This document shows, piece after piece, positions 5,048-46,992 of a stretch of DNA of 64,000 nt. Numbering within the stretch: the first letter of the stretch is position 1; every line of letters starts with the position of its first letter. The translations under genes were made by a program, and so were the position numbers. The notes beneath the pieces are model-generated. The model was not told the DNA's origin. It made no database searches and worked only from the letters and a program-made list of their open reading frames with translations. This stretch comes from Chondrosia reniformis (Eukaryota; Porifera; Demospongiae; Chondrillida; Chondrillidae): contig OX359190.1 in the NCBI GenBank assembly GCA_947172415.1, forward strand, positions 3,224,001 to 3,288,000, read 5' to 3'.

Positions 5048-6736
5048 ATGGCGGAGCTTCCAGCGGTCCCAGCCCTTCAGTCCAGCGAGTTTAGTCACTC
5101 TTGTGTCGGTTGCGAAGAAAAAGTAGAAAAGTTGAAATGTCTACCATGTCTCCACTCGCAGTGCCTTTCATCCTTGAGGACTCAGAGGAAGGCAATCAGA
5201 TCTGCTCTCCAAGAAGTGCAGGACAGCAAAGCTAGTCTCCAACAGCAGTCTGAGAATGCATTGGGAGAGATTGCTGGAATGAAGGAGCATCTGTTTGCCA
5301 TGGTGACAGCCCGCTGTGATGGTCTTGCTGCTGAAGTGAGGGAAGTAGAAGACAAGGGAAGAAGAGAACTTGAGAGACGCGAGAGAGAATTGAAGGTCAG
5401 TCTGAAGAAGCTTGATGTATTCCATTGTCTGTCAGAAGAGATGAGTTTGAATGGAACAATAGAAGAGCAGTTATCAGTGACAAAGAAGATTGTCAGTCGC
5501 ATGTCATCTCTCAGCAGCAGTATCTCAATGCCAAGAGCCTCCATCCAACCTACTGTTGGTCTGAAGAGCTGTGATCGAGAAGAAGTGGAAAAGTACATCT
5601 CATCACTTAGAAACATCCATCACGGTCCCCATCTATCAAACTGCACAATGGAAGGAGTGGTAGTGAAGGATAGCGTCATTACCTGCAGAAGCTTTGCCAA
5701 GAAACCTTTTCACTTTAAGGTGATGACAAGAGGCGAGAGAGGCAATGAGTGCAGAGGAGGAGAGAAAGTGTTGGCAGTCCTTCGTCCTGTGACAGCAGGT
5801 GTTCCTGTGTTTGGTAAAGTAGCAGACATGAGAGATGGCACATTTGAGGTGCAGTTTGCGAGTGTTTCGTCGGAGAAGTGCCATCTGAGTGTGACTGTTG
5901 GAGGACATGATGTAGCAGGCAGTCCAGTAGAGGTGAAGGTAGTTGGTGGTAGTGTAATTACTGCAGTCAAGCAGGAGTTCAAGCATCCAGCAGGTTCTAA
6001 GTATTTGGGTGTTGCAGTAGGTCCGGATGGTTTGCTATACTGTTCAGATAACAGAGGACAAATGACTATCCTAAACAGACAAGGTCAAGTTATAAGAAGC
6101 TTCAAAGTCAAGAGTGGTGGTAGATTGTTTGGAATTTCACTAAGTAGAACAGGGAATGTGAAAGTTAGTGACTATTGGAATGGCTACATCAGTATCTACA
6201 CAGCATGCAGGAGGTGAATTTGTAAGGCAGTTTAGAGGAAAAGGTAAAGATCAAGGTCAACTTAGAAATCCATGTGGTCTGGCAGTTAACAAGGAGGGAC
6301 ATATATTTGTGGCAGAGTGTGGAGGTCATTGTGTTTCTCTGTTTACAGAAGAAGGTACATTCCTGTACAGGTTTGGTCACGAGGGTAAAGCTGTAGGAGA
6401 GTTTAATCACCCAAATTACATTCTCATAACACCTGATGATTTGGTGCATGTCACAGATGAAGGAAATCATTGCATTCAAGTGTTTCAGCAGAATGGTCAG
6501 TTTATTAGGCAGTTTGGGAATAGCATTGTGAAGGTATAACAGTCACAAGTGATGAACATATAGTGGTAGCTTTATATGATGCTAATAAACTCAGCATCTT
6601 CACACAAGATGGACAGTGTGTCCATGAAGTGACTGATATTGGATTGAATCATCCTTTTGGTGTAGCAGTTGATAGTGATGCATTGTTTGTCTTTTACATA
6701 GCAGATTGTAATAACAGTAGAGTAGTAGTACTTTGA
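5048..6736 (+). pseudogene. TRIM-NHL copy A: B-boxes deleted, frameshifts in the propeller
   Basis: The start MAELPAVPALQSSE matches the intact copies. After ...CLPCLHS the frame jumps straight to the coiled coil (QCLSSLRTQRKAIRS), removing the second half of the RING-like region and both B-boxes without shifting the frame. The coiled coil, filamin-type Ig domain and first NHL blades follow. The frame breaks at about 6205 (extra bases in acagcatgcaggaggtgaat) and again at about 6533, where bases before the gtataacagtc are missing; a small insertion lies near 6690. The final RVVVL stop is at 6734-6736. A 389-residue protein could still be made. Decay is likely, though the single in-frame deletion could have produced a ligase-dead variant first. 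Confidence 0.85.
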
Positions 6737-7011
6737 GAACTTTTAGAGAACAAGTTTGTTAACTGTGAACAATTTCTTCAAATTTATAGAAATTATTAGT
6801 TGTACAATGATTTATTCAGTTTCAATTATAAAGTTCAATTCATGTTTATTTACAAATTATATTCAAGTGTTTTCCTTATTTGGTAACCTACCACCCACTC
6901 AGTACAATGTGTTATTCAAATGAAAATGGACAACAAATTAAAAATAACTTGAGTTAAAGTAAATTTTCATAGAAATAGTTATTGTCCCATGTCAATATAG
7001 ATATTTATACA

Positions 7012-7800
7012 TTAGCTATGTGTTGGAAGTCTAATTGAAAACATTGCAATTCCAGTGTTTGTATATAGTCGTATCAAAGGAAAAGATTGGTGTTGTCGAA
7101 CGTGAGGAATGATACATGAGTAGCAATATAGGACATATCCTGAGGTAGTGAGGGTGGTTGGGGTTGCTATGGCAACTGTGACACATAGGACACACATTTG
7201 CAGGAAAGAGACTCTGGACCTGTTAAGACAAGAATCAGTAGTTTTAGATGGTTGCCTAGCAACCATTAAGACAATCCTACCTGTGTGTCCCTGGGTGGGG
7301 GAGGGTTTGGTAAGGTAGTCACAGCCTGTCGTGTGGTGCATCCCTCCTCTGCCATCCACCAGTCGAGGAACCTCATCACGTAGGCTGCACCCAACATGGC
7401 CACAGAGAGACACCTAAAGTAGAGAGCTCTACTAGTAACTAGAAAGAGCAGTTGGAGTTTCTAGTCTGTTACTTCAGCATACTCAAAAGTATATACAGCT
7501 AAACACACTCCAGAAAGTGATGGAAAATATTCTATATATAGTAATTTATACATGACCTAAGTCAATTATAATTTTATTTTCCCTTATATACAAGAATATA
7601 CAAGAATATACAAGAATATACAAGAATATACAAGAATATACAAGTGGTGTCTCAGCTGACGAGTGTCCCTTTACATGACACTCAATAACAGTACTACTAG
7701 TCCCAGCTTACATGACACTTCCTCCTACCCTCTAGTGGGACCATTCAGACACACTCCGCCCATCCACAGCTCAAGGGAATAATATTTACTTTTGTCAATA
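7012..7800 (-). pseudogene. PEX12: PEX12 3' exons, copy A
   Basis: Minus-strand exons, in order: part of the exon containing the ...SLELWMSG... segment (about 7740-7800), the exon with MLGAAYVMRFLDWW and a proline-rich PNPPPP linker (about 7282-7413), and the RING exon (7012 to about 7218) with ...SGYV..CYSCIIPHVRQHQS. These match the C-terminal half of peroxin-12, a peroxisomal membrane RING-type protein of the PEX2/PEX10/PEX12 complex that ubiquitinates the PEX5 receptor. An extra base in the AGCAACCCCAAC stretch and an insertion near 7125 shift the RING frame, and upstream exons are absent, so this copy is dead. Confidence 0.8.
7589..7646. repeat. 10-bp tandem repeat in PEX12 intron
   Basis: The unit caagaatata is repeated about five times. 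Shorter runs of the same unit occur at the same intron position in the other PEX12 copies (near 12665, 22535, 28515, 41325 and 47905), so the length varies between copies. Confidence 0.85.
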
Positions 7801-8690
7801 GTTATATAAGCATTCAGTATACTCTTGTAAATTATTGTATAACAAGCATGTAGTTTTGTATATAATCTTTATACACCGTATACATGCGTCGTTGTATATA
7901 TATAGTTGTTGCATTATAACTTCCACAGGACTAACTTATTAAAGTCAATATTTTGACATAATGCTAATTTGCATTCAGTATGTAAATGTATTATATTATT
8001 ATTGTTATTATTATTATTATTATTATTATTAGGTCATATGTCAGTCAGGTACGCTGGACATGCAACTTCTCTTACGACGCCAGTAGTAAGTACTTCCACC
8101 TCCTCTTGGTGTACCCTGGGGTCACTCAGTAAAGTGATGCGAAGCGAAGTACTGTTCCAATCCAATAGTCACTAGAGGAGAAGATGCATGCTAGGAACAT
8201 GGTCTTTTCACAACCTTGAAGAACTAAAACCTACTTTGTTTGAACATTTTTTCTTTTTTATAAAAATGTATTATTACAGAATTGTCAAGCAAAAATGACC
8301 ATTTACAATATCCCAATTGGTGAAATTGATATATAGAAATGAATTAATGTATTATAGTGAATTCAAACATCTATATATTAAAAATATAAGCCATGCAGCA
8401 TTTACCTATATAAGCATTCAGTATATTCTTGTAAATTATTGTATAACAAGCATGTAGGTTTGTAATCTATATACACCGTACAATGCATGGTTTATAGTAG
8501 TATATATTTAGAAGTTGTTGCATTATTACTTGTGCAGCTTATTAAAATCAATTTTTTCACATATTGCAAATATACATTCAGTATGTAAATGTATTATATA
8601 TTTGTCAACTGAACATTACAACTCTAAAATTATGATTATCACATGTAAAGACAGTTCTAAATTTTAGGAGTCAAATAACTGCTAAATGTT
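7800..8690. repeat. Cassette junction with TTA microsatellite and a possible SINE-like module
   Basis: An (ATT)n run lies at about 7996-8031. The block at 8031-8235 (gtcagtcaggtacgc ... tacttccacctcctc ... gaagtactgttccaatcc ... aagaactaaaacctac) recurs at about 38590-38815. Its gttccaatcc resembles a tRNA-type B box (GTTCnAnnC), which would fit a tRNA-derived SINE, but I found no clear A box. No coding region is evident. Confidence 0.5.
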
Positions 8691-8691
8691 G

Positions 8692-9048: not shown

Positions 9049-10049
9049 CAGAGGAGGAGTGGTCAAGTAAGAGGAGGGCGTGGTCAAGGACAAGAGGGGA
9101 GTGGTCAAGTATAAAAAGCAAATTGGCAATTGCTATATCAGATGCACATCTAATGGTTGTCAGAATTATAATGGATGAATTCACATAAAAGTGATGTGGA
9201 TAGTAAAGCACTTAAATTTTAGTATGCCACTTCTGTATGGTTAGCCTTATCACGTGCTAATCAGTTACTAATTGGTCCCACACACTTGACCTGTAACAAA
9301 CTCTAAATGGAGCTATTGTTTATGTCAAATAATTGACAAACTAATATAAACCACATGCACAAATCACTCCAAGTAATACTGCAATATAAGTAATACTTTA
9401 CAGAGGATATATAAACAATTGCACACTCTATACTTCTAAAAAACTTGTATTTTTTCTATAAAGAACTTATGATAGGAACTTTAAATGCACATGGTCTTCT
9501 ACATTGCCCTTCCCAATAATTTTATAAGTACAAATAATATCATAGCAGCACCTAAAACTACATAGTAACAGCTGTAATTAATTTAAGTCCAGCTTTTGAA
9601 AACTTAACTTTTTCAGGTAATCTTAGAACTTGCATACATACAATGTACATAGACTTTGAGATCCAAATATCATGTACTTGTGAAATGTCTACAGTACGTA
9701 CAGATTAATTTAACAAAATGTTACATCAGTTGCCATATTCCAAAATGTCAAAACTCACACTCAAAGCAGACATATCACTTCATCAAACAAAGAGACAATG
9801 TCCATCAAAGCAGACTAGAAAAACTATTGAGAATCCTCCTAATAAATATCCACAGCGTTCTGAATAGATTGCTCAGATAAGTACAGAAAGGAAACACTTT
9901 TAATGTAATATATAATAATGCAGACTTTATCAACGTTTAGGTTACACTAAAAGGCAAAATACAAGTTGCGAGTGTGAGACAAGTAGAAGGAAATGAAGCA
10001 ACTTCAATCTTAAAAAGAAACGCTATAATTAAGTTCGTATTCAATTTGC

Positions 10050-11615
10050 AAACAACAAGGAAGGCAATCAGATCTGCTCTCCAAGAAGTGCAGGACAGCA
10101 AAGCTAGTCTCCAACAGCAGTCTGAGAATGCGTTAGGAGAGATTGCTGGAATGAAGGAGCATCTGTTTGCCATGGTGACAGCCCGCTGTGATGGTCTTGC
10201 CGCTGAAGTGAGGGAAGCAGAAGACAAGGGAAGAGAGAACTTGAGATCGAGACGCGAAAGAGAATTGAAGGTCAGTCTGAAGAAGCTTGATGCATTCCAT
10301 TGTCTGTCAGAAGAGATGAGTTTGAATGGAACAACAGAAGAGCAGTTATCAGTGACAAAGAAGATTGTCAGTCGCATGTCATCTCTTAGCAGCAGTATCT
10401 CAATGCCAAGAGCCTCCATCCAACCTTCTGTTGGTCTGAAGAGCTGTGATTGAGAAGAAGTGAAAAAGTACATTTTATCACTCGGAAGCGTCCATCACAG
10501 TCCCCATCCACCAAACTGCACTATGGATGAAGTGGAAGTTAAGGATGACGTCATTACCTGCAGAAGCTTTGCCAAGAAACCTCTTCACTTTAAGGTGATG
10601 ACAAGAGACGAGAGAGGCAATGAGTGCAGAGGAGGAGAGAAAGTGTTGGCTGTCCTTCGTCCTGTGACAGCAGGTGTTCCTGTGTTTGGTAAAGTAGCAG
10701 ACATGAGAGATGGCACATATGAGGTGCAGTTTACGAGTGTTCCATCAGAGAAGTGCCATCTGAGTGTGACAGTTGGAGGAAACGATGTAGCAGGCAGTCC
10801 AGTAGAGGTGAAGGTAGTTGGTGGTAGTGTAATTACTACAGTCAAGCAGGAGTTCAAACATCCATCAGGTTCTAAGTATTTGGGTGTTGCAATAGGTCTG
10901 GATGGTTTGCTCTACTGTTCAGATAGTAGAGGACAAGTGACTATCCTAAACAGACAAGGTCAAGTTATAAGAAGCTTCAAAGTCAAGAGTGGTGGTTCGT
11001 TGTTTGGAATAGCACTAAGTAGAACAGGGAATGTGATAGTTAGTGACTATAGTAATGGCTACATCAGTATCTACACAGCAGTTGGTGAATTTGTAAGGCA
11101 CTTTGGAGGAAAAGATAAAAATCAAAGTCAACTTAATTATCCATTTGGTCTGGCAGTTACCAAGGAGGGACATATATTTGCGGTAGAGTATTGGGGTCAT
11201 TGTTTTTTGTGTTTACAGAAGAAGGTACATTCCTGTACAGGTTTGATCACTTGGGTAAAGCTGAAGGAGAGTTTTATCACCCAAGTTACATTCTCATAAC
11301 ACCTGATGATTTGGTGCATGTCACAGATAGAGGAAATGATTGAATTCAAGTGTTTCAGCAGAATGGTCAGTTTTTAGGCAGTTTGGTAATGGCATTGTGA
11401 AGCATCCAGAAGGTATAGCAGTCACAATTGATGAACATATAGTGGTAGCTTTATATGATGCTAATAAGCTCAGCATCTTCACACAAGATGGACAGTACTA
11501 GTGTGTCCATGAAGTGACTGATATTGGATTGAATTGTCCTTATGGTGTAGCAGTTGATAGTGATGGACTCATTTACATAGCGGATCGTTATAACAGTAGA
11601 GTAGTAGTACTTTGA
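10050..11615 (+). pseudogene. TRIM-NHL copy B: 5' truncated, nonsense and frameshifts
   Basis: Homology begins inside the coiled coil (KAIRSALQEVQDSKASLQQQ). Immediately upstream is ordinary cassette upstream sequence (acaagttgcgagtgtgagac...), so a deletion has fused the intergenic region to the middle of the gene and removed RING and B-boxes. CGA has become TGA at about 10451 in the linker before the filamin domain. A base run at 11200 shifts the NHL frame, another TGA occurs at about 11341 and a few bases are inserted near 11497. An open frame from 9974 would append intergenic codons to the coiled coil, but nothing suggests it is used. The final stop is at 11613-11615. Confidence 0.88.
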
Positions 11616-14467: not shown

Positions 14468-16280
14468 TCAAGCAATTTACACACATACACAGTATTTCCA
14501 ATACATTTCAAATCTGTGGCAAATGGATAAAGGCCTGTATGTGTCTTGGTGGAGGGAGGAGAGCGACTTTTCATGATACAGAAAACTGGAAATAGTGCGA
14601 GGTCCGATATTTATCGACTTGACGATATTAATGTTTATGATCGATATTTCAACTGACACGGCTGTATGAATTATACTCTCAGTCTAATTCCAAACTTAAT
14701 AAGTTTTAGCGTATATAAATGGATTCAAATTTCTATATATATGCTAAATAATGTTTTTAAGGAGGCTGTACGTAGTTCCAAAAATGTTTTTAATTATTCT
14801 TTCTATACGTAAATAGCTATGTATTGTGAGAGATAGGACAAATGTTAGTGTTTGATAGAATTACACCACTAAATGTACATTAAATTCTAGTGTACACAGT
14901 TAATATATTATGGTGAGAGATAAGGCAAATTTTAAGTTCCATCAAAATGCCAAAAACTCATTGAACATACATGTACTCTATATATAGGTGTTTGTGAATG
15001 CTGCATGACACAAAGTCACAGCTTCATATCTTTAAATTCAATAGAGTTATAGTCCTGAATGTACATTTAATTCTGGTATACAAAGTTAATGAATATACGT
15101 ATGGTGAGACTCATCCTCAGCTGAAGGGAATAATATTTACTTTTCTTAATCAAATAAGAGAAATTAAACAACAACTTTACAAACTACACAGAATAGGGAG
15201 TAGGGTGAGGACTAGGTTGCCATGGTAACAACTTAAACAGACTTCCTCTATGAAGTGAAGGATGTGGTACATCTTCACAAACCACTTCCACTGATGTGGT
15301 ACAGTCTCTCCACTGTCCTGCTGCTCACAAGATTGATGATTATAAAATGTATAAAATGTACCTTTTTAATTGTGCTGATGTAGCATTTCCATTGATGTAA
15401 GATGCCATAGATGTCATCTACATCAGTTCTTCAACTAGCTTCTCTCTATTATAATTAGTCTCATTGTCACTGTTTTCAGTTACAAACCCTTCAATCTATT
15501 TGGGTGAAAATATAATGAAGTGTGTGTGGTATTCAGGGAGTTACAATAAAACACAAAGACATGCAGTATCCCCCATGGGGTCATATATATGATCACCATT
15601 ATAACAGCCTAATAAACTTCTCCTGAATTCAAATTACAAAATTGAATCAGAATTGGTTCCCTCTATATATTCAACCATCCATCTCTTATCCAACCATCCA
15701 TCCCTCTATTCAACCATCCATCCCTCTCTCCAACCATCCATCCCTATATACAACCATCCATCCCTATATACAACCATCCATCCCTATATACAACCATCCA
15801 TCCCTATATACAACCATCCATCCCTATATACAACCATCCATCCCTATATACAACTATCCATCCCTATATACAACCATCCATCCCTATATACAACTGTCCA
15901 TCCCTCTATCCAACTGTATGTCTACTCTGTTTTCTGGTATAAATGTAGTTAATAAGCACCTGTCCCAGACACATTTTGCCCAAATGTGCACTTAAAACTA
16001 TTTAAATTGTCTTACCTGTTAGAACTTGCGTAGTAAAGACAAAGAAAGTCATCATTGTCTGCAGCTATGTGCCTTTGTGCCCAGAGTACACACATTTTCA
16101 GTTCTTTGTCACTTTGGCTGCAATACCTATTTTACCAGGACCTCCAGGAGCCATCTTGTTAGGATGTTAGCATTGATGCCTAGCTGTCGAAACAAATCTT
16201 CAGAAGTTGCTTCAGAAATCACACCTTTTTCAATGAATATGCGTAGCTCTGGACTTTGAGATTTACTTGGGCCATACTGG
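14468..16280. repeat. Segmental duplication, copy 2
   Basis: This is the partner of 1-2852. The order of satellite, PEX12-derived fragment (about 15100-15330), expanded minisatellite and unknown coding remnant is the same. The insertion point of the hAT-type element is unoccupied here (around 15330). Confidence 0.85.
15675..15915. repeat. 20-bp minisatellite, about 12 units
   Basis: Head-to-tail caaccatccatccctatata units with few variants. They create two overlapping open frames rich in repeated Ile-Pro-Ser/Tyr, which are a by-product of the repeat and are not annotated as genes. Confidence 0.95.
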
Positions 16281-19352: not shown

Positions 19353-21530
19353 ATGGCGGAGCTTCCAGCCCTTCAGTCCAGCGTGCTTGGTCTCTCTTGT
19401 GTCGGTTGCGGAGAGAAAGTAAAAGAGTTGAAATGTCTACCGTGTCTGCACTCGTTAGCTTTGTGCGAGAAGGTAGAATGTCGAGAGAAGATTCTCCATC
19501 GCAGCGTCTCCTGCAAGATTTGCGAGGAAGTGTTCTCCTTGTCTCTCAAGGATCTCTCTGACCATCCGTTCGCTCTGAGGAAGGCTTTGAGCAACCAGTA
19601 CCGGAAGGAAGGCGTCATCTGTCAAGTGGAACACGAAGAAGAGAGATCGGCCGTAAGTTTCTGCTCGACTTGCGATGCGTTCATTTGCCAGGAATGCGTC
19701 GATGAACACAAATCTCACAAGTTCCTTAAAAAACACGAATTAAAGCCTTTGCAAGGAGTGTTTGAGCAAGGCGGTAAGAAAGAGGATTTGTTCAAATGCT
19801 CGAAACACAAAGAGAATTGCAAACTTTACTGTCACACGTGTGAAGAAATGATTTGTCACATTTGTCGATCGATCGAACCTCACCATTCCCACAAAGTGTC
19901 GTACATTGACGATGAGCTGGGAGAGTCCAACAAGACCACTCTGACACAGTGCCTTTCATCCGTGAGGACTCAAAGGAAGGCAATCAGATCTGCTCTCCAA
20001 GAAGTGCAGGACAGCAAAGCTAGTCTCCAACAGCAGTCTGAGAATGCGTTAGGAGAGATTGCTGGAATGAAGGAGCATCTGTTTGCCATGGTGACAGCCC
20101 GCTGTGATGGTCTTGCTGCTGAAGTGAGGGAAGCAGAAGACAAGGGAAGAAGAGAACTTGAGAGACGTGAGAGAGAATTGAAGATCAGTCTGAAGAAGCT
20201 TGATGCATTCCATTGCCTGGCAGAAGAGATGAGTTTGAATGGAACAACAGAAGAGCAGTTATCAGTGACAAAGAAGATTGTCAGTCGCATGTCATCTCTC
20301 AGCAGCAGTATCTCAATGCCAAGAGCCTCCATCCAACCTTCTGTTGGTCTGAAGAGCTGGGATCGAGAAGAAGTGGAAAAGTACATCTCATCACTTGGAA
20401 GCATCCATCACAGTTCCCATCCACCAAACTGCACTATGGAAGGAGTGGTAGTGAAGGATAACGTCATTACCTGCAGAATTATACCTTGGATAAAGAAACC
20501 TCCTTTGCAATTTAAGGTGATGACAAGAGATGAAAGAGGTAATGAGTGTAGAGGAGGAGAGAAAATGTTGGCTGTCCTTCGTCCTGTGACAGCAGGTGTT
20601 CCTGTGTTTGGTAAAGTAGCAGACATGAGAGATGGTACATATGAGGTGCAGTTTGCAAGTGTTCCATCAGAGAAGTGCCATCTGAGTGTGACTGTTGGAG
20701 GACATGATGTAGCAGGCAGTCCAATAGAGGTGAAGGTAGTTGGTGGTAACGTATATACTGCAGTCAAGCAGGAGTTCAAGCATCCTTCACGTTCTCAGTA
20801 TTTGGGTGTTGCAGTAGGTCCGGATGGTTTGCTATACTGTTCAGATAGTAGAGGACAAGTGACTATCCTAAACAGACAAGGCCAAGTTATTAGAAGCTTC
20901 AAAGTCAAGAATGGTGGTTGGTTGTGTGGAATAGCACTAAGTAGAACAGGGAATGTGATAGTTAGTGCTACTAATGGATACATCAGTATCTACACAGCAG
21001 CTGGTGAATTTGTAAGGCAGTTTGGAGGAAAAGGTAAAGATCAAGGTCAACTTAGTGATCCATTTGGTGTCGCAGTTAACAAGGAGGGACATATATTTGT
21101 GACAGAGTGTGGAGGTCATCGTGTTTCTGTGTTTACAGAAGAAGGTACATTCCTGTACAGGTTTGGTCACGAGGGTAAAGCTGAAGGAGAGTTTATTTTC
21201 CCTCATTACATCCTTATAACACCTGATGATTTGGTGTATGTCACAGATGGTGATAATCATTGCATTCAAGTGTTTCAGCAGAATGGTCAGTTTATTAGGC
21301 AGTTTGGTAATGGCATTGTGAAGTATCCACAAGGTATAGCAGTCACAAGTGATGGACATATAGTGGTAGCTTCATATAGTGCTAATAAGCTCAGCATCTT
21401 CACACAAGATGGACAGTGTGTCCATGAAGTGACTGATATTGGGTTGAATGGTCCTTTTGGTGTAGCAGTTGATAGTGATGGACTCATTTACATAGCAGAT
21501 TGCAATAACAGTAGAGTAGTAATACTTTGA
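19353..21530 (+). CDS. TRIM-NHL protein, copy C, intact (725 aa)
   Basis: Single-exon TRIM-NHL protein, probably a cytoplasmic ubiquitin-ligase-type or adaptor protein. It has an unusual RING-like cysteine/histidine cluster at residues 16-57 (C16, C19, C28, C31, H33, C38, C43, C54, C57) and B-box 1 at about 90-122 (C90, H94, C104, C107, C112, C115). B-box 2 is at about 149-180 (C149, H152, C160, C163, C168, C171, H178, H180). A coiled coil (about 195-320), a filamin/ABP280-type Ig domain (about 360-465) and six NHL blades (about 475-725) follow. The ATG was chosen because copies A, D and F share it, preceded by the conserved gcgaggtctgcaa leader. The linker has the CRIIPWIKKPP variant, shared with F but not A, B or D. 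Differences from D cluster at two positions of each blade. The substrate or ligand is unknown. Confidence 0.93.
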   Translation: MAELPALQSSVLGLSCVGCGEKVKELKCLPCLHSLALCEKVECREKILHRSVSCKICEEVFSLSLKDLSDHPFALRKALSNQYRKEGVICQVEHEEERSAVSFCSTCDAFICQECVDEHKSHKFLKKHELKPLQGVFEQGGKKEDLFKCSKHKENCKLYCHTCEEMICHICRSIEPHHSHKVSYIDDELGESNKTTLTQCLSSVRTQRKAIRSALQEVQDSKASLQQQSENALGEIAGMKEHLFAMVTARCDGLAAEVREAEDKGRRELERRERELKISLKKLDAFHCLAEEMSLNGTTEEQLSVTKKIVSRMSSLSSSISMPRASIQPSVGLKSWDREEVEKYISSLGSIHHSSHPPNCTMEGVVVKDNVITCRIIPWIKKPPLQFKVMTRDERGNECRGGEKMLAVLRPVTAGVPVFGKVADMRDGTYEVQFASVPSEKCHLSVTVGGHDVAGSPIEVKVVGGNVYTAVKQEFKHPSRSQYLGVAVGPDGLLYCSDSRGQVTILNRQGQVIRSFKVKNGGWLCGIALSRTGNVIVSATNGYISIYTAAGEFVRQFGGKGKDQGQLSDPFGVAVNKEGHIFVTECGGHRVSVFTEEGTFLYRFGHEGKAEGEFIFPHYILITPDDLVYVTDGDNHCIQVFQQNGQFIRQFGNGIVKYPQGIAVTSDGHIVVASYSANKLSIFTQDGQCVHEVTDIGLNGPFGVAVDSDGLIYIADCNNSRVVIL

Positions 21531-31605: not shown

Positions 31606-32740
31606 ACTTTTAACTGTATTGAAACAGTTGCAATTGCTTATAATTCATGCAAATTATAAATTACTTGCTTATAATTGTAATATCCATTCATATCCAAGTG
31701 CATGATAAAATCAAAAGTTATGACGTATATAACATGCATACTGTAAATGTAACTGTAATGCATGCGCAGTTCCAAGAGTCTGAAACTCTTTGAATATAAC
31801 AGAATGTCTCCATTATAATTGACTCCATGAGGTGTGTCATAAAGTAAACCTTACTTAACCAGGTTACACTAAAAGGCAAATACAAGTTGCGAGTGTGAGA
31901 CAAGTAAGAAAATGAAACAACTTTAATCTTAACAAAGAAATAAAGTTCCGTATTCAACTTGCAATTACATGATGGCTGCCATTTTGAACTGCACCCCTAT
32001 ATACACAAAAATGAACATATTATCTCTGTACATATTCTTCCGTGTCAATTTACATTAGATGACCGTGTGATCTTGCTCATTCGAGTGCAATTTGTAACTG
32101 GTCTATATTAAGCATGTTGACATTGATATATTACAAATACGTGAATTATTGTTTCCCTGAGCTTGAGATCTCAGAAGGATAAGACGATAATGACGTCACA
32201 TCAGAGCGATACTACAACCGGGTCAGAGCTTGTGTCGCCCCGCCAAATGTTACTATAAGAGACCGGAAAAGTGTCGGTCGATCGTCGGCCTACGGGCCAT
32301 TACTTATGTGTATACATGCATCTACATTATCTACATTATCCACATCGTCCCACTCTGTAAATCACCCTTCACCTTATGCACGTGTTAATTGAAGTCAATT
32401 GGACACGCCTCTTCAGCAACGGAAAATCGAGGTAAGCCGTCAGACCTTATCACCTCGATAAGGTCTGATAGTTCCAAATTAGTATGGCCGGCCGATTTTA
32501 GCACGTGCAACGTGAACCTGTATCAGCATTAAAGGACAATACAAGTTCGGTTAAATTAGTTCGGCGTATAGTTATCAGAAATCTTGAATGAAATGGGTTT
32601 TGGAAAAGAAATAGAAGGTACAGAGAGTGTACTATATTTTCATGTAGTTTAACTAATTCGGACACTCTAATCTTGCCTGAATAGTTTAGTATTCCTGTAT
32701 CAAAGTCTTTCTTGTATAATATATAGTGATAAGAACCAAC
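31606..32740. other. Relic of a TRIM upstream region and 5' region of the Kelch gene
   Basis: From about 31860 to 32115 the sequence matches TRIM upstream DNA (ggttacactaaaaggcaaat, ttgcgagtgtgagacaag, gatggctgccattttgaa, attagatgaccgtg), but no TRIM coding part follows. A tgacgtca motif lies near 32191, and an inverted repeat tcagaccttat / ataaggtctga spans 32440-32468 with a 7-bp loop. The Kelch gene may have adopted a TRIM-derived promoter; this is inference from position. Confidence 0.5.
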
Positions 32741-34432
32741 ATGGATAATGGCGAGGTAAAATGTGACTTTAATGGCCACTGCTCGTCTCTCCTGAACTCC
32801 TTCAAAAAGATGTCAGAGAACAGAGAATTGTGCGATGTGATACTGACCGTTGGAATGAAGCAGTTTCACGTTCACAAAGTCATACTAGCGGCCAGTAGCC
32901 CATATTTCCAAGCTATGTTTACTAGTGCACTTCAGGAGAGTGCTCAGAAAGAAATTAATTTGAAAGGAACCAATGCGGAGACTGTTGAGACCCTTATCAA
33001 CTGTGTGTATGAATCTACTCTAACTATCACTGTAGAGAATGCCACTTCAGTCCTCGCTTTAGCAGCTCAGTGGCAGATGGAGAAGGTTGTGGAAGTCTGC
33101 AGTCAATTTCTCATCAAACATCTGGACATTGAAAATTGCCTTGAAATGCTTTTTTTTGCTGATGTACATGGCTGTGATGTCCTGAAGAAAGCGACCACAG
33201 ATGTTTCAATTGTCAATTTTTCAGGTGTTTGTCAAACAGAAGCATTTGTCAATGCTCCCGTGGAAATATTGTTGGAATTTCTGAAATCAGACATTTTGGT
33301 GGTTCAGTCGGAAGAGAAGCTATTTGAAGGCCTTCTAAAGTGGTTTAATCACAGCCCTGAGCTCCGAAGAAGTGACATACTAACGATGTTAGATCTTATC
33401 AAGTTCCCCTTAATACCCTGGGAGGTCATCGAAGAGAAACTGAAACAGAATAAATTATATTCGGAGCAAAAATGTAAGAGGATGCTTACAAATGCACGTA
33501 ACTTTCAGATGCATCCTAAAAAGGGAGCAGACTACAACAGGGAAGATCCCCTATATATTCCACGTAGTTGGAGTAAGCCGATTTATGTGATTGTATACGA
33601 TTACTCTAATACCGGAAAATACTTTGTAGAACAGTATGATCCAACATTAAATCAGTGGAAAAGACTTATATCTCTTCCTACTGAAAGGCATAACTTTGAA
33701 GTGTGCACCCATCAGGGGTTACTGTATGTCATTGGTGGTAGAGATGCATTTGATGGTAGTCCTCTAAACCTTGTGGAATGCTATGATCTAAAGAGTGGTC
33801 AGTGGAGCAGGCATGCTGATATGCTGAAAAGGCGTACATCGTTTGGGGTTGGAGTAGTTGATGGATATTTGTATGCTGTTGGAGGGGATGAAGGGATTTG
33901 GGTTGTAGGGATATCTGTAGAAAGGTATGACCCAGAAAAGAATCAGTGGTCTTTTGTGGCTCCTTTGAATACCAAGCGTTATGGGTTGACCGTTGTTACA
34001 GATAACACTACTATGTATGCTGTTGGTGGGATAGGTATAGGGGGGGGATATCTGCCCAACTGCGAGGTGTACAATTCTGTCAAAAACGAATGGAGTGTCA
34101 TTGCCCCCATGAACGTTCCAAGGTGTTATGCTGGTGCTTGTATGGTAGATAGATTGCTCTATGTTTTTTGTGGGTACAAACGTGAAGATGCAGAAGTGTT
34201 CAATCCAGCTAATAAAACTTGGAAAATGATCTCAGGAATGTCCAAACCTCAAACTTTTCCAAACTGCAAGAATCTGTTAGCATATCAGGGAAATATTGTT
34301 GTCATTGACAGGTCTATCAAGGAATGTTCTAGAACTGTTCAATATTATAATTCACAAACAATGAATTGGTATATTTTGTCAGAAATTAAATCTGAACAGA
34401 AGTTTGGGGGTATACGTGCCTGCTGTCTTTAA
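32741..34432 (+). CDS. BTB-BACK-Kelch (KLHL-type) protein, single exon, 563 aa
   Basis: Predicted CUL3 substrate adaptor. The BTB domain is at about 20-125 (LCDVILTVG, FHVHKVILAASSPYFQAMFT), BACK at about 130-240 (CLEMLFFADVHGC, then the FLKSDILVVQSEEKLFEGLL part), and Kelch repeats at about 270-555 with blade signatures YVIGGRDAFDG, YAVGGDEGIW and YAVGGIGIGGG. Length and order fit KLHL proteins. The ATG at 32741 (aaccaacATGG) is used; the frame extends upstream only without a better ATG. The absence of introns next to multi-exon neighbours suggests an ancestral single-exon family or retrocopy; no poly(A) tract is obvious. The substrate is unknown. Confidence 0.93.
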   Translation: MDNGEVKCDFNGHCSSLLNSFKKMSENRELCDVILTVGMKQFHVHKVILAASSPYFQAMFTSALQESAQKEINLKGTNAETVETLINCVYESTLTITVENATSVLALAAQWQMEKVVEVCSQFLIKHLDIENCLEMLFFADVHGCDVLKKATTDVSIVNFSGVCQTEAFVNAPVEILLEFLKSDILVVQSEEKLFEGLLKWFNHSPELRRSDILTMLDLIKFPLIPWEVIEEKLKQNKLYSEQKCKRMLTNARNFQMHPKKGADYNREDPLYIPRSWSKPIYVIVYDYSNTGKYFVEQYDPTLNQWKRLISLPTERHNFEVCTHQGLLYVIGGRDAFDGSPLNLVECYDLKSGQWSRHADMLKRRTSFGVGVVDGYLYAVGGDEGIWVVGISVERYDPEKNQWSFVAPLNTKRYGLTVVTDNTTMYAVGGIGIGGGYLPNCEVYNSVKNEWSVIAPMNVPRCYAGACMVDRLLYVFCGYKREDAEVFNPANKTWKMISGMSKPQTFPNCKNLLAYQGNIVVIDRSIKECSRTVQYYNSQTMNWYILSEIKSEQKFGGIRACCL

Positions 34433-35021: not shown

Positions 35022-35774
35022 ATACGTATCAGAGAGTACGGTAGTACTCTCTATGTAGGGATGGTACTGGTTGTTTCGTTTTCCCCATACATTTGGTATA
35101 GGAGCGAAATTCCGAATTAGGCTGAAAATCGCCGATACGAGACTATGTAGAGTTAAATATAGAACAGCCATGCTATAAATTGGCCTTGAAGGTAAGCGAC
35201 CGTGTATCGTTGGCAAATGAACGAACTTTGAAATCTCCCATTTTCGTTTCTTCTTCTTCATCTTCTTCGCCCGCTGTAACTAAAAAACGAAATAAGCCTT
35301 CGGACTACTTCATAAGCGAAAATACTCTAAATTTTCCGAGCTGTATTCTTTTGTAGAAGCGAGAGCGATAACGCTATTATTGAGTATGACAGTTTTCATG
35401 GCCCCAGAGTCAAGACCTCAATAAAGTCGCCATTTTAATGACGTCATATTTAGTCGTAAATTGCAAAACCAAAGTGGTTTAAAATAAAACAAATTCCTAG
35501 CTTATGCTCCATAAAAAGTACAGAAACTAGAGAACAATAAAAATTTTCTACAAAAATTGTGAAAATGTAGGGATGGCACAAAAAGCAGTGAAACAAGAAA
35601 GGGATGTTACACAGTGAAGCATTAGCTATGCATGAATCCTACAAGCAAGGGTGTTGTATGATTCATGCATATATAGCTAATGCTTCACTGTGTAACATCC
35701 CTTTCTTGTTTCTCTGCTTTTTGTGCCATCCCTACATCTTCACAATTTTCGTAGAAAATTTTTATTGTTCTCTT
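35022..35774 (+). mobile_element. Fold-back element, tandem unit 1
   Basis: Begins with tatcagagagtacggtagta / ctctctatgtaggg and ends with a large hairpin. Its arms start at 35529 (agagaacaataaaaattttc) and end at about 35774, flanking the centre cctacaagcaagggtgttgt. The arms are about 110-120 bp with few mismatches. Interior landmarks are tccgaattaggctgaaaatc, a cttcttcat run and gccattttaatgacgtcat. There is no credible protein. The open frame from 35604 runs through the hairpin and is an artefact. Confidence 0.7.
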
Positions 35775-36553
35775 ATCAGAGAGTACGGTAGTACTCTCTA
35801 TGTAGGGATGGTACTGGTTGTTTCGTTTTCCCCATACATTGGTATAGGAGCGAAATTCCGAATTAGGCTGAAAATCGCCGAAACGGGACTATGTAGAGTT
35901 AAATATAGAACAGCCATGCTATAAATTGGCCTTGAAGGCAAGCGACCGTGTATCGTTGGCAAATGAACGAACTTTGAAATCTCCCATTTTCGTTTTCTTC
36001 TTCTTCATCTTCTTCATCTTCTTCTTCATCTTCTTCTTCATCTTCTTCGCCCGCTGTAACTAAAAAACGAAATAAGCCTTCGGACTACTTCTTAAGCGAA
36101 AATACTCTAAATTTTCCGAGCTGTATTCTTTTGTAGAAGCGAGAGCGATAACGCTATTATTGAGTATGACAGTTTTCATGGCCCCAGAGTCAAGACCTCA
36201 ATAAATTCGCCATTTTAATGACGTCATATTCAGTCGAACATTGCAAAACCAAAGTGGTTTAAAATACACGAATTCCTAGCTTATGCTCCATAAAAAGTAC
36301 AGAAACTAGAGAACAATAAAAATTTTCTACAAAAATAGTAAAGATGTAGGGATGGCACAAAAAGCAGAGAAACAAGAAAGGGATGTTACACAGTGAAGCA
36401 TTAGCTATGCATGAATCCTACAAGCAAGGGTGTTGTATGATTCATGCATATATAGCTAATGCTTCACTGTGTAACATCCCTTTCTTGTTTCTCTGCTTTT
36501 TGTGCCATCCCTACATCTTTACTATTTTTGTAGAAAATTTTTATTGTTCTCTA
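35775..36553 (+). mobile_element. Fold-back element, tandem unit 2
   Basis: Nearly identical to unit 1 over the body, with a longer (cttcttcat)n run at 35997-36048. The hairpin spans 36308 to about 36553 and its arms are closer to perfect than in unit 1. It joins directly to unit 1 at the shared agagagtacggtagtactct palindrome. Confidence 0.7.
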
Positions 36554-37207
36554 GTATGTAGAGGGATGATGCGTTTTTTATACATCGGTATAGGAGCAAA
36601 ATCCCGAAATATGCCGAAAATCGACAAAACAAGGCTATGTATAGCTAAATATACAATATACATACTCTATAAATAGACCTTACAGGCAAGCGAATATGTC
36701 CCGCTGGCGAAATAATACACTTTAAAAATTCCCATTTTCATCTTCATCTTCTTATTCTTCTTCGCCAGCCATAACTAAAAAACTATAAAAGTTTTTGGAC
36801 TAATTGTTAAGCGAAACTATTGCAAATTTTCCGAGCGGTATTCTTTTGTAGAAGCGAGAGCGATAACGCTATTATTGAGTATGACCGTTTTCATGGCCCA
36901 AGAGTGAAGGCCTCAATAAAGTCGCCATTTTAATGACGTCATACAGTCGAAGATTGCGAAACCAAAATGCATGGGCTGAAATACAATCGAATTCCTAAAC
37001 TTATGCTCCATAATTTACAGTACAAAAACTAGAGAAACAACAAAGGGGTGTTACACAGTGAAGCATTAGCTATGCATGAATCATACAAGCAAGGGTGTTG
37101 TATGATTCATGCATATATAGCTAATGCTTCACTGTGTAACATCCCTTTCTTGTTTCTATGCTTTTTGTGCCATCCCTAATTTTTGTAGAAATTTTTTATT
37201 CTCTAGT
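36554..37207 (+). mobile_element. Fold-back element, tandem unit 3 (diverged)
   Basis: Lacks the starting palindrome and is more diverged in the body (tcccgaaatatgccgaaaat, tttttggactaattg). It keeps a hairpin from about 37029 to 37207 with the same caagcaagggtgttgt centre. It is presumably the oldest unit. Confidence 0.65.
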
Positions 37208-39600: not shown

Positions 39601-39651
39601 GGGAAGTGGTCAAGTAAGAGGAGGGCGTGGTCAAGGACAAGAGGGGAGTAG

Positions 39652-40384
39652 TTATTTGGGTGTTGCAGTAGTTCGGATGGTTTGCTATACTATTCAGATA
39701 ACAGTGGACAATTGACTATCCTAAACAGACAAGATCACGTTATTAGGAGCTTCAAAGTAGAGTGGTGGTTGGTTGTTTGGAATAGCACTAAATAGAACAG
39801 GGAATGTGATAGTTAGCGACATTGATAATGACTACATCAGTATCTACACAGCAGCTGGTGAATTTGTAAGGCAGTTTAGAGGAAAAGGTAAAGATCAAGG
39901 TCAACTTAGTAATCCAGTTGGTTTGGCAGTTAACAAGGAGGGACATATATTTGTGGCAGAGAATAAAGGTCATTGTGTTTCTGTGTTTACAGAAGAAGGT
40001 ACATTCCTATACAGGTTTGGTAACAGGGGTAAAGCTGAAGGAAAGTTTAAATACCCTCGTTATATTCTCATCACAGCTGATGATTTGGTGCATGTCACAG
40101 ATGGAAGAAATGATCACATTCAAGTGTTTCAGCAGAACTGTCAGTTTTTTAGTCAGTTTGGTAATGGCATTGTGAAGGGTCCACAAGGTATAACAGTCAC
40201 AAGTGATGGACATATAGTGGTAGCCTCAGATGGTATTAATAAGCTCAGCATCTTCACACAAGATGGACAGTGTGTCCATGAGGTCACTGATATTGGATTG
40301 AATCGTCCTTATGGTGTAGCAGTTGATAGTGATGGACTCATTTACATAGCAGATTATTTTAACAGTAGAGTAGTAGTACTTTGA
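39652..40384 (+). pseudogene. TRIM-NHL copy E: propeller only, fused to minisatellite
   Basis: The minisatellite gaggggagta runs straight into tatttgggtgttgcagta, the first NHL blade. The missing part between that minisatellite and the NHL region is the whole upstream region, RING, B-boxes, coiled coil and filamin domain. One G is missing near 39674 (gtagttcggatgg), shifting blade 1. From about 39773 the frame is open through blades 2-6 to RVVVL and the TGA at 40382-40384. The blade residues differ from all other copies (for example SNPVGLAV, AENKGH, TDGRND, ASDGIN), so it could donate variation by gene conversion. Confidence 0.85.
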
Positions 40385-42740: not shown

Positions 42741-44020
42741 CTAATAAAGTGTCACAATATGCGTCCTTTCTCCAACTTCTCTCGCAATTGTCCATTTCAT
42801 CCTCCTGGTAGTCCCCCACAGTCGAGGAGGAACTAGCACTCCAGGGACCTCGTGGACCAGCTGCCACTGCATGCTGGACAGGGTGGGCTAGAAAGAGAAG
42901 GAACACCTTTCAGCAAGAGTTAGTGTGAAATGTCTAATGAGGTCAGTGGACGATAGAGAAATGTAGTCTACCGGGGGTGGGAGTACCTGGATGACTGGAC
43001 TATATACAGAAGTGTGTCTACCCCAGGGGAGGGGGGTGGGAGTACCTGGATGACTGGACTATATACAGAAGTGTGTCTACCCCAGGGGAGGGGGTGGGAG
43101 TACCTGGATGACTGGACTATATACAGAAGTGTGTCTACCCCAGGGTAGGGGGGTGGGAGCACCTGGATGACTGGACTATATACAGAAGCGTGTCTACCCC
43201 AGGGGAGGGGGTGGGAGTATATACCTGGATGACTGGACTATATACAGAAGTGTGTCTACCCCAGGGGAGGGGGGTGGGAGTACCTAGATGACTGGACTGT
43301 ATACAGAGGTGTGTCTACCCCAGGGGAGGGGGGTGGGAGTACCTGGATGACTGGACTATATACAGAAGTGTGTCTACCCCAGGGGAGGGGGGTGGGAGTA
43401 CTTGGATGACTGGACTGTATACAGAAGTGTGTCTACCCCAGGGGAGGGGGGTGGGAGTACCTAGATGACTGGACTATATACAGAGGTGTGTCTACCCCAG
43501 GGGAGGGGGGTGGGAGTACTTGAATGACTTCAATGGATAAAATGGCTCCCTCCTTCCCGGCAAGTTTTATTTTTAACAGTTGACCATTCTGAGCAGATTT
43601 AAGAGCGCGAGACAACTGCTCTAAATTGCATTCCAAATAAATCTCGATTTCTCTCGTCTCTTCCCTCAGTATGATAATCATCTAAGAACTTGTTCTACAG
43701 TGAGACACACGTTAAGAGAGTATAAACCCATTTTATATACCATTCTATGAAATAGTAACACCCATTTTATATACTAGTTAATGCAATAGTAACACCACTA
43801 AATACCATTTGAGTAACATAAGTCATCGCTACTCTAACATCACGACCACTCTTAGCTATATATAGTTGGGGACAGCTGCTACCAGAGACCTACTTGCTGT
43901 ATCTCGCTCCACAAACTGATTTCTTCCAGCACACAGACTCCACTCTGATGAAACACACTTTCGTTAGAGACAGTTTGATACCGCAGTTCTTCTTGGATTT
44001 GCTCAATGAAGTCATAACTC
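42741..44020 (-). pseudogene. HUS1: HUS1 fragment, copy F (three exons)
   Basis: Exon 44020-43894 carries SLSKSKKNCGIKLSLTKVCF and then loses one base (cagcacacagac against cagcacaccagac in copy C), shifting the GxxSLWSEIQQ end. Exon about 43678-43516 is open with EIEIYLECNLEQLSRALKSA and ...EGAILSIEVIQ before a gtac donor. The exon from about 42890 to the stop at 42741 has SMQWQLVHEVPGVLVPPRLW, matching the IPxKVxPRxLW strand of HUS1. HUS1 normally forms the 9-1-1 clamp with RAD9 and RAD1. The C-terminal half is missing. Confidence 0.75.
42965..43520. repeat. 57-bp minisatellite in HUS1 intron, about nine units
   Basis: The unit gtgggagtacctggatgact / ggactatatacagaagtgtg / tctaccccaggggagggg includes the exon's own donor region (gtacctggatgac). 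The repeat therefore seems to have grown from the exon-intron boundary. Copy C (17200-17236) has one unit. Confidence 0.95.
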
Positions 44021-44325
44021 CTGTAGCAACAGCAAATGATCTACACACTCACAAACACGCACTAAGGAAGTGAATCATTACATGTTAGTAGTATTGGCAA
44101 CATTTCCAAGCTTGCCTCTAAAACGTATCTTCTTAAATTAATTAGCCAGCAGCCATTTTCTTAATTATAAATGCTCTTTACCTATGACTTACTTTCTTCT
44201 ACGGTATTTGCCATCTGTATAATAATGATATATCGATCTGATTGATACATAAACCATATAGTAACAACTGAAACTGATTACTATTACTGATTAGACAAAC
44301 TTATACCTATAGGCGATGTCTGCAA

Positions 44326-46992
44326 ATGGCGGAGCTTCCAGCCCTTCAGTCCAGCGAGCTTAGTCTCTCTTGTGTCGGTTGCGGAGAGAAAGTAGATAAG
44401 TTGAAATGTTTACCGTGTCTCCACTCGTTAGCTTTGTGCGAGAAGGTAGAATGTCGAGAGAAGATTGATTCTCCATCGCAGCGTCTCCTGCAAGATTTGC
44501 GAGGAATCTTTCTCGTTGTCTCTCAAGAATCTTTCTGACCATCCGTTCGTTCTGAGGAAGGCTTTGAGCAACCAGTACCGGAAGGAAGGCGTCATCTGTC
44601 AGGAGGAACACGAAGAAGAGAAATCGGCCGTAAGTTTCTGTTCGACTTGCGATGCGTTCATTTGCCAGGAATGCATCGATCTTCATAAAACTCGAAAAAT
44701 CTTCAAGAAACACGAAATGAAGCCGTTGCAAGAAGTGTTTGAGCAAGGCGGTAAGAAAGAGGATTTGTTCAAATGCTCCACTGTAAGAATTGCAAACTTT
44801 ATTGTCACACTTGTGAAGAAATGATTTGTCACATTTGCTCTTCTATCGAACCACATCGTTCCCACAAAGTGTCGTACATTGACGATAAGCTTGGAGAGTC
44901 CAACAAGACCACTCTGACGCAGTGTCTTTCATCCGTGAGGACTCAAAGTAAGGCAATCAGATCTGCTATCCAAGAAGTGCAGAACAGCAAAGCTACTCTC
45001 CAACAGCAGTCTGAAAATGCGTTGGGAGAGATTGCTGGAATGAAGGAGCATCTGTTTGCCATGGTGACAGCCCGCTGTGATGATCTTGCTGCTGGAGTGA
45101 GGGAAGCAGTAGACAAGGGAAGAAGAGAACTTGAGAGACGCGAGAGAGAATTGAAGGTCAGTCTGAAGAAGCTTGATGCATTCCATTGCCTATCAGAAGA
45201 GATGAGTTTGAATGGAACAACAGAAGAGCAGTTTTCAGTGACAAAGAAGATTCAGTCTCATATCATTTCTCAGCAGCAGTATCTCAATGCCAAGAGCCTC
45301 CATCCAACCTTCCGTTGGTCTGAAGAGCTGTGATCGAGAAGAAGTGGAAAAGTACATCTCATCACTTGGAAGCATCCATCATAGTCCCCATCCACTAAAC
45401 TGTACTATGAAAGGAGTGAAAGTGAAGGATAACGTCATTATCTGCAGAATGAGACCTTGGATAAAGAAACCTCCTTTGCAGTTGAAGGTGGTGACAAAAG
45501 ACGAGAGAGGCAATGAGTGTAGAGGAGGAGAGAAAGTGTTGGCTGTCCTTCGTCCTGTGACAGCAGGTGTTCCTATATCTGGTAAAGTAGCAGACATGAG
45601 AGATGGCACATATGAGGTGCAGTTTGCGAGTGTTCCATCAGAGAAGTGCCATCTGAGTGTGACTGTTGGAGGACATGATGTAGCAGGCAGTCCAGTAGAG
45701 GTGAAGGTAGTTGGTGCTAGTGTAATTACTGCAGTCAAGCAGGAGTTCAAGCATCCATCAGGTTCTTGGTATTTTGGTGTTGCAGTAGGCCCGGATGGTT
45801 TGCTATACTATTCAGATATCAGTGGACAAGTGACTATCCTAAACAGACAAGGTCAAGTTATAAGAAGCTTCAAAGTCAAGAATGGTAGTTGTTTGTGTGG
45901 AATAGTACTAAGTAGAACAGGGAATGTGATAGTTGGTGACTATGGTAATGGCTACATCAGTATCTACACAGCACCTGGTGAATTTGTAAGGCAGTTTAGA
46001 GGAAAAGGTAAAGATCAAGGTCAACTTAGTAATCCATGTGGTGTGGCAGTTAACAAGGAGGGACATATATTTGTGGCAGAGAATTGGGGTCATTGTGTTT
46101 CTGTATTTACAGAAGAAGGTACATTCCTATACAAGTTTGGTCACAAGGGTAAAGCTGAAGGAGAGTTTATTTTCCCTCGTTACATTCTCATAACACCTGA
46201 TGATTTGGTGCATGTCACAGATGGTAATAATCATCGCATTCAAGTGTTTCAGCAGAATGGTCAGTTTATTAGACAGTTTGGTAATGGCATTTTGAAGGAT
46301 CCAGAAGGTATATATAGCAGTCACAAGTGATGGACATATAGTTGTAGCTTCATGTACTAATAAGCTCAGCATCTTCACACAAGATGGACAGTGTGTCCAT
46401 GAAGTGACTGATATTGGATTGAATGGTCCTTTTGGTGTAGCAGTTGATAGTGATGGACTCATTTACATAGCAGATAGTGATAACAGTAGAGTAGTAGTAC
46501 AGTGGAACCTCACAAATGCGACCACCTTTGGGACCACATTTTTTGGTCTTAATTTTGAGGTGGTCCTAATTCTGAAATTATTACGTACATGTACACGTAG
46601 GAAATATCTGTCAACAAAATGGCGGACACTCGGCTGGCTTTGTTTTCTACCTTAAAAATAAGCTTTTTCTTCCTTAACGTCGAGCATTGAACCAGTGAAA
46701 GGGATTTAGAAAGCACTTTTAATAAGGTAAAGCTTGCATAAACGTTTTCTATGAGATATGGCATTGGCAACGACCGGAACTCGAACTTTGGTTTCACACC
46801 TGGTCGTTATACCGAGGTTATTTGCCGGTTGCTTTAATAATATCCGTCCGAAAAGAGTGGTCGTAAAAGAGGTGGTCGCTTTTCTGAACACCTAAAGTAT
46901 AGCGCGAGATACAAGAATTACTCGGGACCAAAAAAATCTTTGAGGTGGTCTTAATACTGAGGTGGTCATTAAGCGAGGTTCCACTGTACTTT
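44326..46992 (+). pseudogene. TRIM-NHL copy F: at least four frameshifts and a transposon before the stop
   Basis: The same domain order as C and the same CRMRPWIKKPP linker type place it with the HUS1-linked subgroup. Breaks visible against C: extra gatt at about 44465 in the RING, missing bases at about 44780 in B-box 2 (tgctccactgtaag), altered bases at about 45252 before the linker, and an extra tata at about 46312 in blade 5. A 487-bp pogo-like element is inserted two codons before the end, so the original Leu-stop now lies at 46988-46992. Many NHL-blade codons remain readable and show distinct residues (SNPCGVAV, AENWGH, TDGNNH). Confidence 0.88.
46500..46986. mobile_element. Pogo/Tigger-like non-autonomous element, 487 bp
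   Basis: The ends CAGTGGAACCTC and GAGGTTCCACTG are exact inverted repeats, and similarity extends inward (gcgaccacc / ggtggtcat). The element is flanked by TA at 46498-46499 and 46987-46988, while intact TRIM copies read gtagtagtactttga without it. TA duplication and a CAGT..AACCTC terminus are typical of the pogo/Tigger branch of Tc1/mariner. No transposase is encoded. A related decayed piece lies at 52243-52420. Confidence 0.9.

Follow-up and report, generated by a model that had tools for sequence, protein, structure and literature searches.

The stretch analyzed here, called the window throughout, comprises 64,000 nucleotides of the sponge Chondrosia reniformis (positions 3224001-3288000 of contig C2, within a searched genome of 117,379,552 bases in 15 contigs). 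Searching with tblastn revealed that it carries an array of six TRIM-NHL gene copies, all on the plus strand and together spanning window positions 5048-46499. Two of the six, copies 3 and 4, are open throughout, while the remaining four are frameshifted, interrupted or truncated:

5048-6733, + strand: TRIM-NHL copy 1, broken (part of the B-box missing, frameshifts); tblastn pieces in different frames, open reading frame (ORF) 5048-6217
10016-11612, + strand: TRIM-NHL copy 2, broken (without N-terminus; frameshifts and stops in the NHL region); tblastn pieces
19353-21530, + strand: TRIM-NHL copy 3, a single frame of 725 amino acids with RING-like finger, two B-boxes, putative coiled-coil region, filamin domain and six-blade NHL propeller; ORF, Pfam and profile matches
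25452-27623, + strand: TRIM-NHL copy 4, a single frame of 723 amino acids; ORF and Pfam
39610-40369, + strand: TRIM-NHL copy 5, an NHL fragment only; tblastn
44326-46499, + strand: TRIM-NHL copy 6, full length with several frameshifts; tblastn pieces

Judged by its predicted domains, the array belongs to the TRIM-NHL family (TRIM subfamily C), with a finger that is only RING-like. NHL (PF01436), filamin (PF00630) and two B-box stretches (PF00643) exceed the Pfam cut-off in both intact window copies, and B30.2, NACHT and WD40 domains are absent from the same scan of these two proteins, which carry NHL instead. Profile searches with copy 3 matched the structures of TRIM71, Brat and TRIM2. Residues 148-320, where the coiled-coil region is putative, match the TRIM3 structure 8amr (E value 4.6e-6), and the N-terminus matches TRIM2 RING structures (E value 9.4e-5) and the TRIM56 RING (0.0038). 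The candidate zinc ligands C16, C19, C31, H33, C38, C43, C54 and C57 are invariant among 10 aligned copies. Neither the Pfam scan nor inspection of the N-terminus by eye pointed to a membrane or secretion part, no signal predictor having been run; since the N-terminus by eye lacks a secretion signal, the protein is more simply read as intracellular.

The window array is part of a large family. With the 725-residue protein of copy 3 as query, at least 62 loci (63 matches) were scored on contigs C1, C2, C4, C5, C6, C8, C12 and C14, and 56 of these reach an identity of at least 84%; the count of 62 is a lower bound, because 62 of 249 first-look candidates were scored. A query from a second array, on contig C9, added 42 loci with at least 81% identity, distributed over C9, C3, C7, C8, C1, C14 and C5, and it also matched loci from the first set, there with an identity of about 50%. 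The two sets do not overlap by position; counting intact and broken copies alike, they amount to about 100 loci or more. We aligned 58 open-frame copies and analyzed 52 of them, those sharing 83% identity or more with window copy 3. Left out of the 52-copy set were L043, L052, L063 and L066, whose frames are interrupted or truncated, and L064, L065, L067, L068, L069 and L070, which fall below 83% identity.

Across these 52 copies, most of the protein shows low entropy, and the peaks fall in the NHL loops. A first-pass annotation, made from the window alone, had proposed that two sites of every NHL repeat vary recurrently between copies. All the loop motifs that it quoted are present in translated pieces of the window copies (in blade 6, HPFG and CNN in copy 1, CPYG and RYN in copy 2), and recurrence at equivalent loop sites was borne out, with the two sites per repeat refined to two pairs of codons. 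One pair flanks a conserved P (P-1 and P+1) and the other follows a D (D+1 and D+2), or their equivalents, giving 24 template sites over the six blades. In copy 3 they lie as follows:

20796-20804, + strand: blade 1, P-1 and P+1 equivalents (residues 482, 484); alignment, entropy, site tests
20847-20852, + strand: blade 1, D+1 and D+2 sites (499, 500); alignment, entropy, site tests
20919-20927, + strand: blade 2, P-1 and P+1 equivalents (523, 525); alignment, entropy, site tests
20970-20972, + strand: blade 2, D+2 site (540), the loop being one residue shorter in copy 3; alignment
21057-21065, + strand: blade 3, P-1 and P+1 sites (569, 571); alignment, entropy, site tests
21108-21113, + strand: blade 3, D+1 and D+2 sites (586, 587); alignment, entropy
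21198-21206, + strand: blade 4, P-1 and P+1 sites (616, 618); alignment, entropy, site tests
21249-21254, + strand: blade 4, D+1 and D+2 sites (633, 634); alignment, entropy
21324-21332, + strand: blade 5, P-1 and P+1 sites (658, 660); alignment, entropy, site tests
21375-21380, + strand: blade 5, D+1 and D+2 equivalents (675, 676); alignment, entropy, site tests
21450-21458, + strand: blade 6, P-1 and P+1 sites (700, 702); alignment, entropy, site tests
21501-21506, + strand: blade 6, D+1 and D+2 sites (717, 718); alignment, entropy, site tests

The variable codons are not spread evenly over the propeller: 21 of the 23 NHL codons with an entropy of at least 1.8 bits fall on the 24 template sites among 247 NHL columns (hypergeometric probability 3e-25). 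Nor are the differences found only in dead copies, as all 52 sequences are open frames. When the template was shifted by 1-8 codons, mean entropy fell from 2.24 to 0.98 or less. The template itself came from the first-pass annotation, and the exact 24 columns were fixed after the entropy profile had been seen; its independent tests are the copies outside the window and the second array. Among the 50 non-window copies, template sites account for 21 of the 24 codons that vary most in the NHL domain, with a mean entropy of 2.23 versus 0.29 bits. Three of the 24 sites vary less (blade 1 P+1, blade 3 D+2 and blade 4 D+1), and two extra hot codons, residues 607 and 615, both lie in the stretch leading into blade 4. 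Taken together, the 24 sites form 50 distinct combinations in the 52 copies, and their net charge ranges from -3 to +4 with a mean of 1.4, as computed from sequence. Compared with the rest of the NHL domain they are enriched in W (about 107-fold, with a pseudocount), C (4.4-fold), Y (3.2), R (2.6) and N (2.4) and depleted in A, P, T, V and I. This composition, the number of combinations and the range of charge would suit a surface that meets many different partners.

We performed pairwise, tree-free counting of replacement and silent differences (pN/pS) in the 52 copies, with 95% intervals obtained by codon bootstrap. As the first-pass annotation had anticipated, replacement exceeds silent change at the loop codons in this comparison of paralogs, and it does not elsewhere in the NHL domain: pN/pS was 2.53 (1.72-4.30) for the 24 loop codons, compared with 0.73 for the 223 other NHL codons and 0.44 for 479 codons upstream. 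Sliding the template by +5 or -5 codons gave 0.82 and 0.79. By class of site, the ratio reached 5.2 (3.9-8.4) at P+1 and 2.3 (1.3-4.6) at D+1. A custom likelihood grid (FUBAR-like) was used for the per-codon ratio of replacement to silent substitution rates (dN/dS). On the background tree, all 23 hot codons had a posterior above 0.95, with a mean beta of 14 versus an alpha of 1.7; three other trees returned 23, 21 and 23 of the 23, and trees from half-domains 10 of 11 and 12 of 12. Closely related pairs tell the same story at short range, with 12 of 23 hot codons changed between L015 and L018 at a background-base difference of 1.5%, and 20 of 23 between L016 and L021 at 2.5%.

Silent variation at the same codons is unexceptional in its T/C component. 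Third-base T/C diversity was 0.044 for the 19 loop columns, compared with 0.026 for the remaining NHL codons and 0.057 upstream, and diversity at codon positions 1 and 2 of the loop codons was 0.465. Because silent T/C diversity is ordinary, the loop excess would not come from relaxed constraint or from a mutation hotspot. The share of change at the third (wobble) position, 0.195 over the 23 hot codons, is matched by 0.208 (standard deviation 0.016) in simulations of selection under a codon model; residues 482 and 658 stand out individually, since none of 200 simulations reached values as low as theirs.

The paralogs also exchange short tracts, as indicated by the decay of association with distance and by the four-gamete test. 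Among 69 biallelic background sites, the squared correlation (r2) falls from 0.31 below 15 bp to 0.029 at 50-100 bp, where chance gives 0.020, and the four-gamete fraction is 0.77-0.88 past 50 bp. At the hot sites of 48 of the 52 copies, covariation is found within blades (mean z of 3.0 for D+1/D+2 and 1.9 for P-1/P+1), whereas sites in different blades hardly covary on average (mean z 0.2-0.5), which suggests that the loops assort like cassettes. Judged from these patterns in the sequences, gene conversion between paralogs shuffles the loops.

Upstream of the propeller, silent diversity is raised in the B-box region (alignment columns 120-200, about residues 106-186, for example in L009), at 0.11-0.17 in two 40-codon bins versus mostly 0.04-0.08. 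Differences between close copy pairs fall there in linked blocks, as if gene conversion passed haplotype blocks of this region around among the paralogs.

The C9 array is about 50% identical to the window family. We fetched 18 of its loci and left out the truncated L076, so that 17 NHL sequences entered the site analysis; two near-identical copies were further left out of pN/pS, leaving 15. Nine C9 codons had a posterior above 0.9, namely six template sites, the two homologues of residues 607 and 615, and one codon elsewhere; the likelihood grid has the same weakness under conversion here as in the main family. Point estimates of pN/pS were 1.69 at the 24 homologous sites versus 0.73 at other NHL codons. 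Going by these codon comparisons, the pattern of variable sites is replicated in the C9 array. Its closest pairs are varied: L080 and L082 are identical over 268 codons, L075 and L079 differ over 268 codons by a single base, which produces a Y-to-H replacement at blade 6 P+1, and L077 and L078 differ at 17 bases with one template codon changed. A neighboring gene pair occurs twice in this array, at C9 7172259-7178822 (L079/L080) and 7219964-7226527 (L075/L082), with an offset of 47,705 bases for both genes; the two pairs are a recent segmental duplication.

The first-pass annotation had further placed the variable loops where known NHL domains touch their ligands, and mapping of published contacts agrees. 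Thirteen of 14 LIN41 RNA contacts, taken from passages of PMC5908797, fall at P-1, P+1, D+1 or D+2, and all 14 residue letters agree (hypergeometric probability 2e-14, with 26 of 276 positions counted as template, one P pair among them being spurious). The exception, Cys563, occupies P-2, as does the extra hot residue 615. In Brat, the portions of PMC9070667 drawn on here speak of 15 residues and name four contacts, Asn800, Tyr829, Arg847 and Arg875; all four occupy template sites, with the numbering anchored on Tyr829 and the other three letters in agreement. By homology to these contact residues, the variable sites are predicted to lie on one ligand-binding face of the propeller.

We consider it rather probable that in this expanded sponge family a TRIM scaffold presents a recognition face that has been diversified by positive selection at the 24 loop codons and shuffled by gene conversion. 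On this view a largely constant framework, composed of the RING-like zinc finger, the two B-boxes, the coiled-coil region, the filamin domain and the propeller frame, would bear the diversified NHL face. Its 24 loop codons, four per blade, would change under positive (diversifying) selection while conversion between paralogs redistributes short tracts. Each copy may then recognize a different, fast-changing target through the NHL face, the likeliest candidate being a foreign protein of viral or bacterial origin within the cell. Once captured by the propeller, the target would be ubiquitinated or sequestered via the RING-like, B-box and coiled-coil part, as in the diversified TRIM proteins of vertebrates, and the role of the repertoire is probably immune. 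Since the copies do not share a constant basic face, a protein ligand appears likelier than RNA. The original reading of the array was upheld in part: diversified loop sites, replacement excess, intact copies and contact positions stand, and allorecognition, the other half of its immune-or-allorecognition proposal, is the weaker half.

Several observations weigh against this interpretation. Intervals for pN/pS touch 1 at two of the site classes, P-1 (2.4; 0.95-9.2) and D+2 (1.65; 1.0-3.8), and the C9 ratio of 1.69 is a point estimate without interval. When neutral data were simulated with the topology scrambled every 10 codons, the likelihood grid returned posteriors above 0.95 at 27, 21 and 103 of 300 codons for rates of 1, 3 and 8. 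Given these false positives, we take the tree-free pN/pS as the safer number, and the tree test is not the sole proof. Moreover, 14 of the 51 codons with a posterior above 0.9 lie outside the NHL domain. Silent A/G diversity is 0.117 at loop codons (9 columns) versus 0.031 and 0.056 elsewhere, fourfold diversity is 0.074 at 1-2 codons from hot sites versus 0.045 farther away, and pS is 0.18 at loop codons versus 0.06, in part an effect of counting multiple hits; there may be a small mutational contribution at the loop codons. Some duplicates have kept their loops unchanged despite background divergence (0 of 23 hot codons between L015 and L019, 0 of 22 between L035 and L053). As to the scaffold, the Pfam model zf-C3HC4_3 stays below cut-off (8 of 10 members at E values up to 1, the best 0.0051, L009 at 0.0085), and the spacings H33-x4-C38 and C38-x4-C43 exceed those of the classic RING pattern used for comparison. 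In view of the sub-threshold match and the long spacings, catalysis by the RING-like finger is only putative.

Other explanations of the loop variation were weighed. Solvent-exposed loops might merely tolerate change, and by blade register the sites do fall in inter-strand turns of a domain that is otherwise conserved. This we find hardly credible: pN at the loops (0.455) is 2.5 times the local pS and about 7 times the pS of other NHL codons (0.062), a replacement excess above what relaxation alone gives, and tolerance does not fit the depletion of A, P, T, V and I or the enrichment of W. A targeted mutation mechanism, whether hypermutation or template-driven, would alter the loop codons directly. 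Bases 1 and 2 vary while the third is often fixed, as at residue 658, where ten dinucleotides are combined with T in 52 of 52 copies. It is nonetheless very improbable: an ordinary codon model with selection reproduces the wobble share over all 23 hot codons, and T/C diversity at the silent positions of loop codons is not unusual. Both results disfavor a whole-codon hotspot or template-type hypermutation. An old region preserving ancient alleles was rejected as well, fourfold diversity in the NHL domain (0.058, 87 columns) being equal to that upstream (0.061, 171 columns).

Two further alternatives accept the recognition face and assign it another ligand. Sponges fuse or reject grafts, and copies or alleles of the family might mark self among individuals. 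In fungal allorecognition genes, as passages of PMC1805685 describe them, a propeller shows paired diversification of the same kind. The sponge loci are, however, dispersed on several chromosomes rather than forming one polymorphic locus, and neither a membrane nor a secretion part turned up in the Pfam scan; we hold allorecognition to be quite improbable. Alternatively, the face might read different RNA sequences or hairpins (from transposons, viruses or the sponge's own mRNA), with the scaffold repressing or degrading the RNA. The variable sites coincide with RNA-contact positions of LIN41 and Brat in the passages cited above, the enriched N, Y and R are also employed by Brat, and rapid evolution of NHL RNA recognition is argued in passages of PMC5908797. 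Against an RNA ligand stand the mixed net charge without a constant basic patch, where LIN41 uses a basic pocket (passages of PMC5908797), and the strong enrichment of W and C, which in our judgement seems more like protein interfaces. An RNA-binding repertoire is accordingly possible but unlikely. In its specific form, a pool of about 100 or more gene-converting TRIM-NHL loci acting as combinatorially diversified readers of foreign (viral or transposon) RNA in the mode of Brat and LIN41, we rate it a shade less likely again. If true, such a pool would constitute a germline-encoded, protein-only, sequence-specific RNA surveillance repertoire in an early-branching animal.

The window contains other features besides the TRIM-NHL copies. 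Within the array lies a BTB-BACK-Kelch protein (568-residue open frame, 32726-34432, + strand), which we take to be of the KLHL type with the architecture of a Cul3 adaptor. Downstream, the adjacent Kelch-type frames 52724-53806 and 54994-56145 (+ strand), of which the domain scan covered 52724-53806 only, share about 95 nearly identical residues from KLHLIGGEFVTKQD onward and have divergent ends, which suggests recent duplication or conversion. Repetitive reading frames at 15605-15995 and 42968-43237, with runs of the HPSIPIYNHPSLYTT and SSRYSHPLPWGRHTSVYSPVIQ type, are probably minisatellites. A repeat pair at 35592-35924 and 36350-36676 (+ strand), less than 800 bases apart, has a common stretch that translates from NKKGMLHSEALAMHESYKQGCCMIHAYIANASLCNIPFLF. 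An Rfam search and a tRNA scan of the window yielded no match, and an NCBIfam scan returned bacterial propeller models only, below cut-off.

For TRIM2 and TRIM3, we know of no expansion or diversified face. Among these two (PDB 7b96, 8a38), TRIM2 is the best profile match for both the NHL domain and the RING-like N-terminus. TRIM71/LIN41 and Brat share the fold and contact their ligands at P-1, P+1, D+1 and D+2 (passages of PMC5908797 and PMC9070667), and LIN41 has the filamin-NHL order in common with the sponge copies. As those passages describe them, LIN41 and Brat are developmental regulators with basic RNA-binding faces, in contrast to about 100 or more sponge loci with faces of mixed charge. 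No report of such an expansion or diversification of sponge TRIM-NHL genes was found in a literature search that left most subscription journals outside its reach, and the main text of the C. reniformis genome paper (PMC12181767) contains neither "TRIM" nor "tripartite".

The closest parallels in evolutionary logic come from other folds. According to the parts of PMC2657112 used here, the finTRIM genes of teleost fish are a lineage-specific TRIM expansion, and in finTRIM and primate TRIM5alpha the selected codons lie in ligand-binding loops of the C-terminal domain. The sponge family is likewise expanded, as counted in one sponge genome, and its selected codons are similarly placed. Whereas those vertebrate loops belong to a B30.2 beta-sandwich (same source), the sponge sites repeat blade by blade on a six-blade NHL propeller; the B30.2-type diversification of recognition in vertebrate TRIM proteins would thus have its counterpart on sponge NHL propellers. 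The 24 codons provide a concrete set for tests of ligand specificity. The NWD/HNWD genes of Podospora anserina (het-d, het-e), in the passages of PMC1805685 considered, have four positively selected codons per repeat, arranged as two pairs on an interaction face, and exchange sequence between paralogs, all as in the sponge family. They differ in that their WD40 repeats sit on NACHT proteins rather than NHL repeats on a TRIM scaffold, that a conserved residue lies between the two codons of each pair (7/9 and 25/27), whereas in the sponge this holds for the P pair alone and the codons of the D pair are adjacent, and that their repeats are homogenized within a gene as well, while the sponge blades, on inspection of the alignment, are distinct within each gene. 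On this comparison, recognition repertoires seem to have been built from repeat propellers on more than one occasion.

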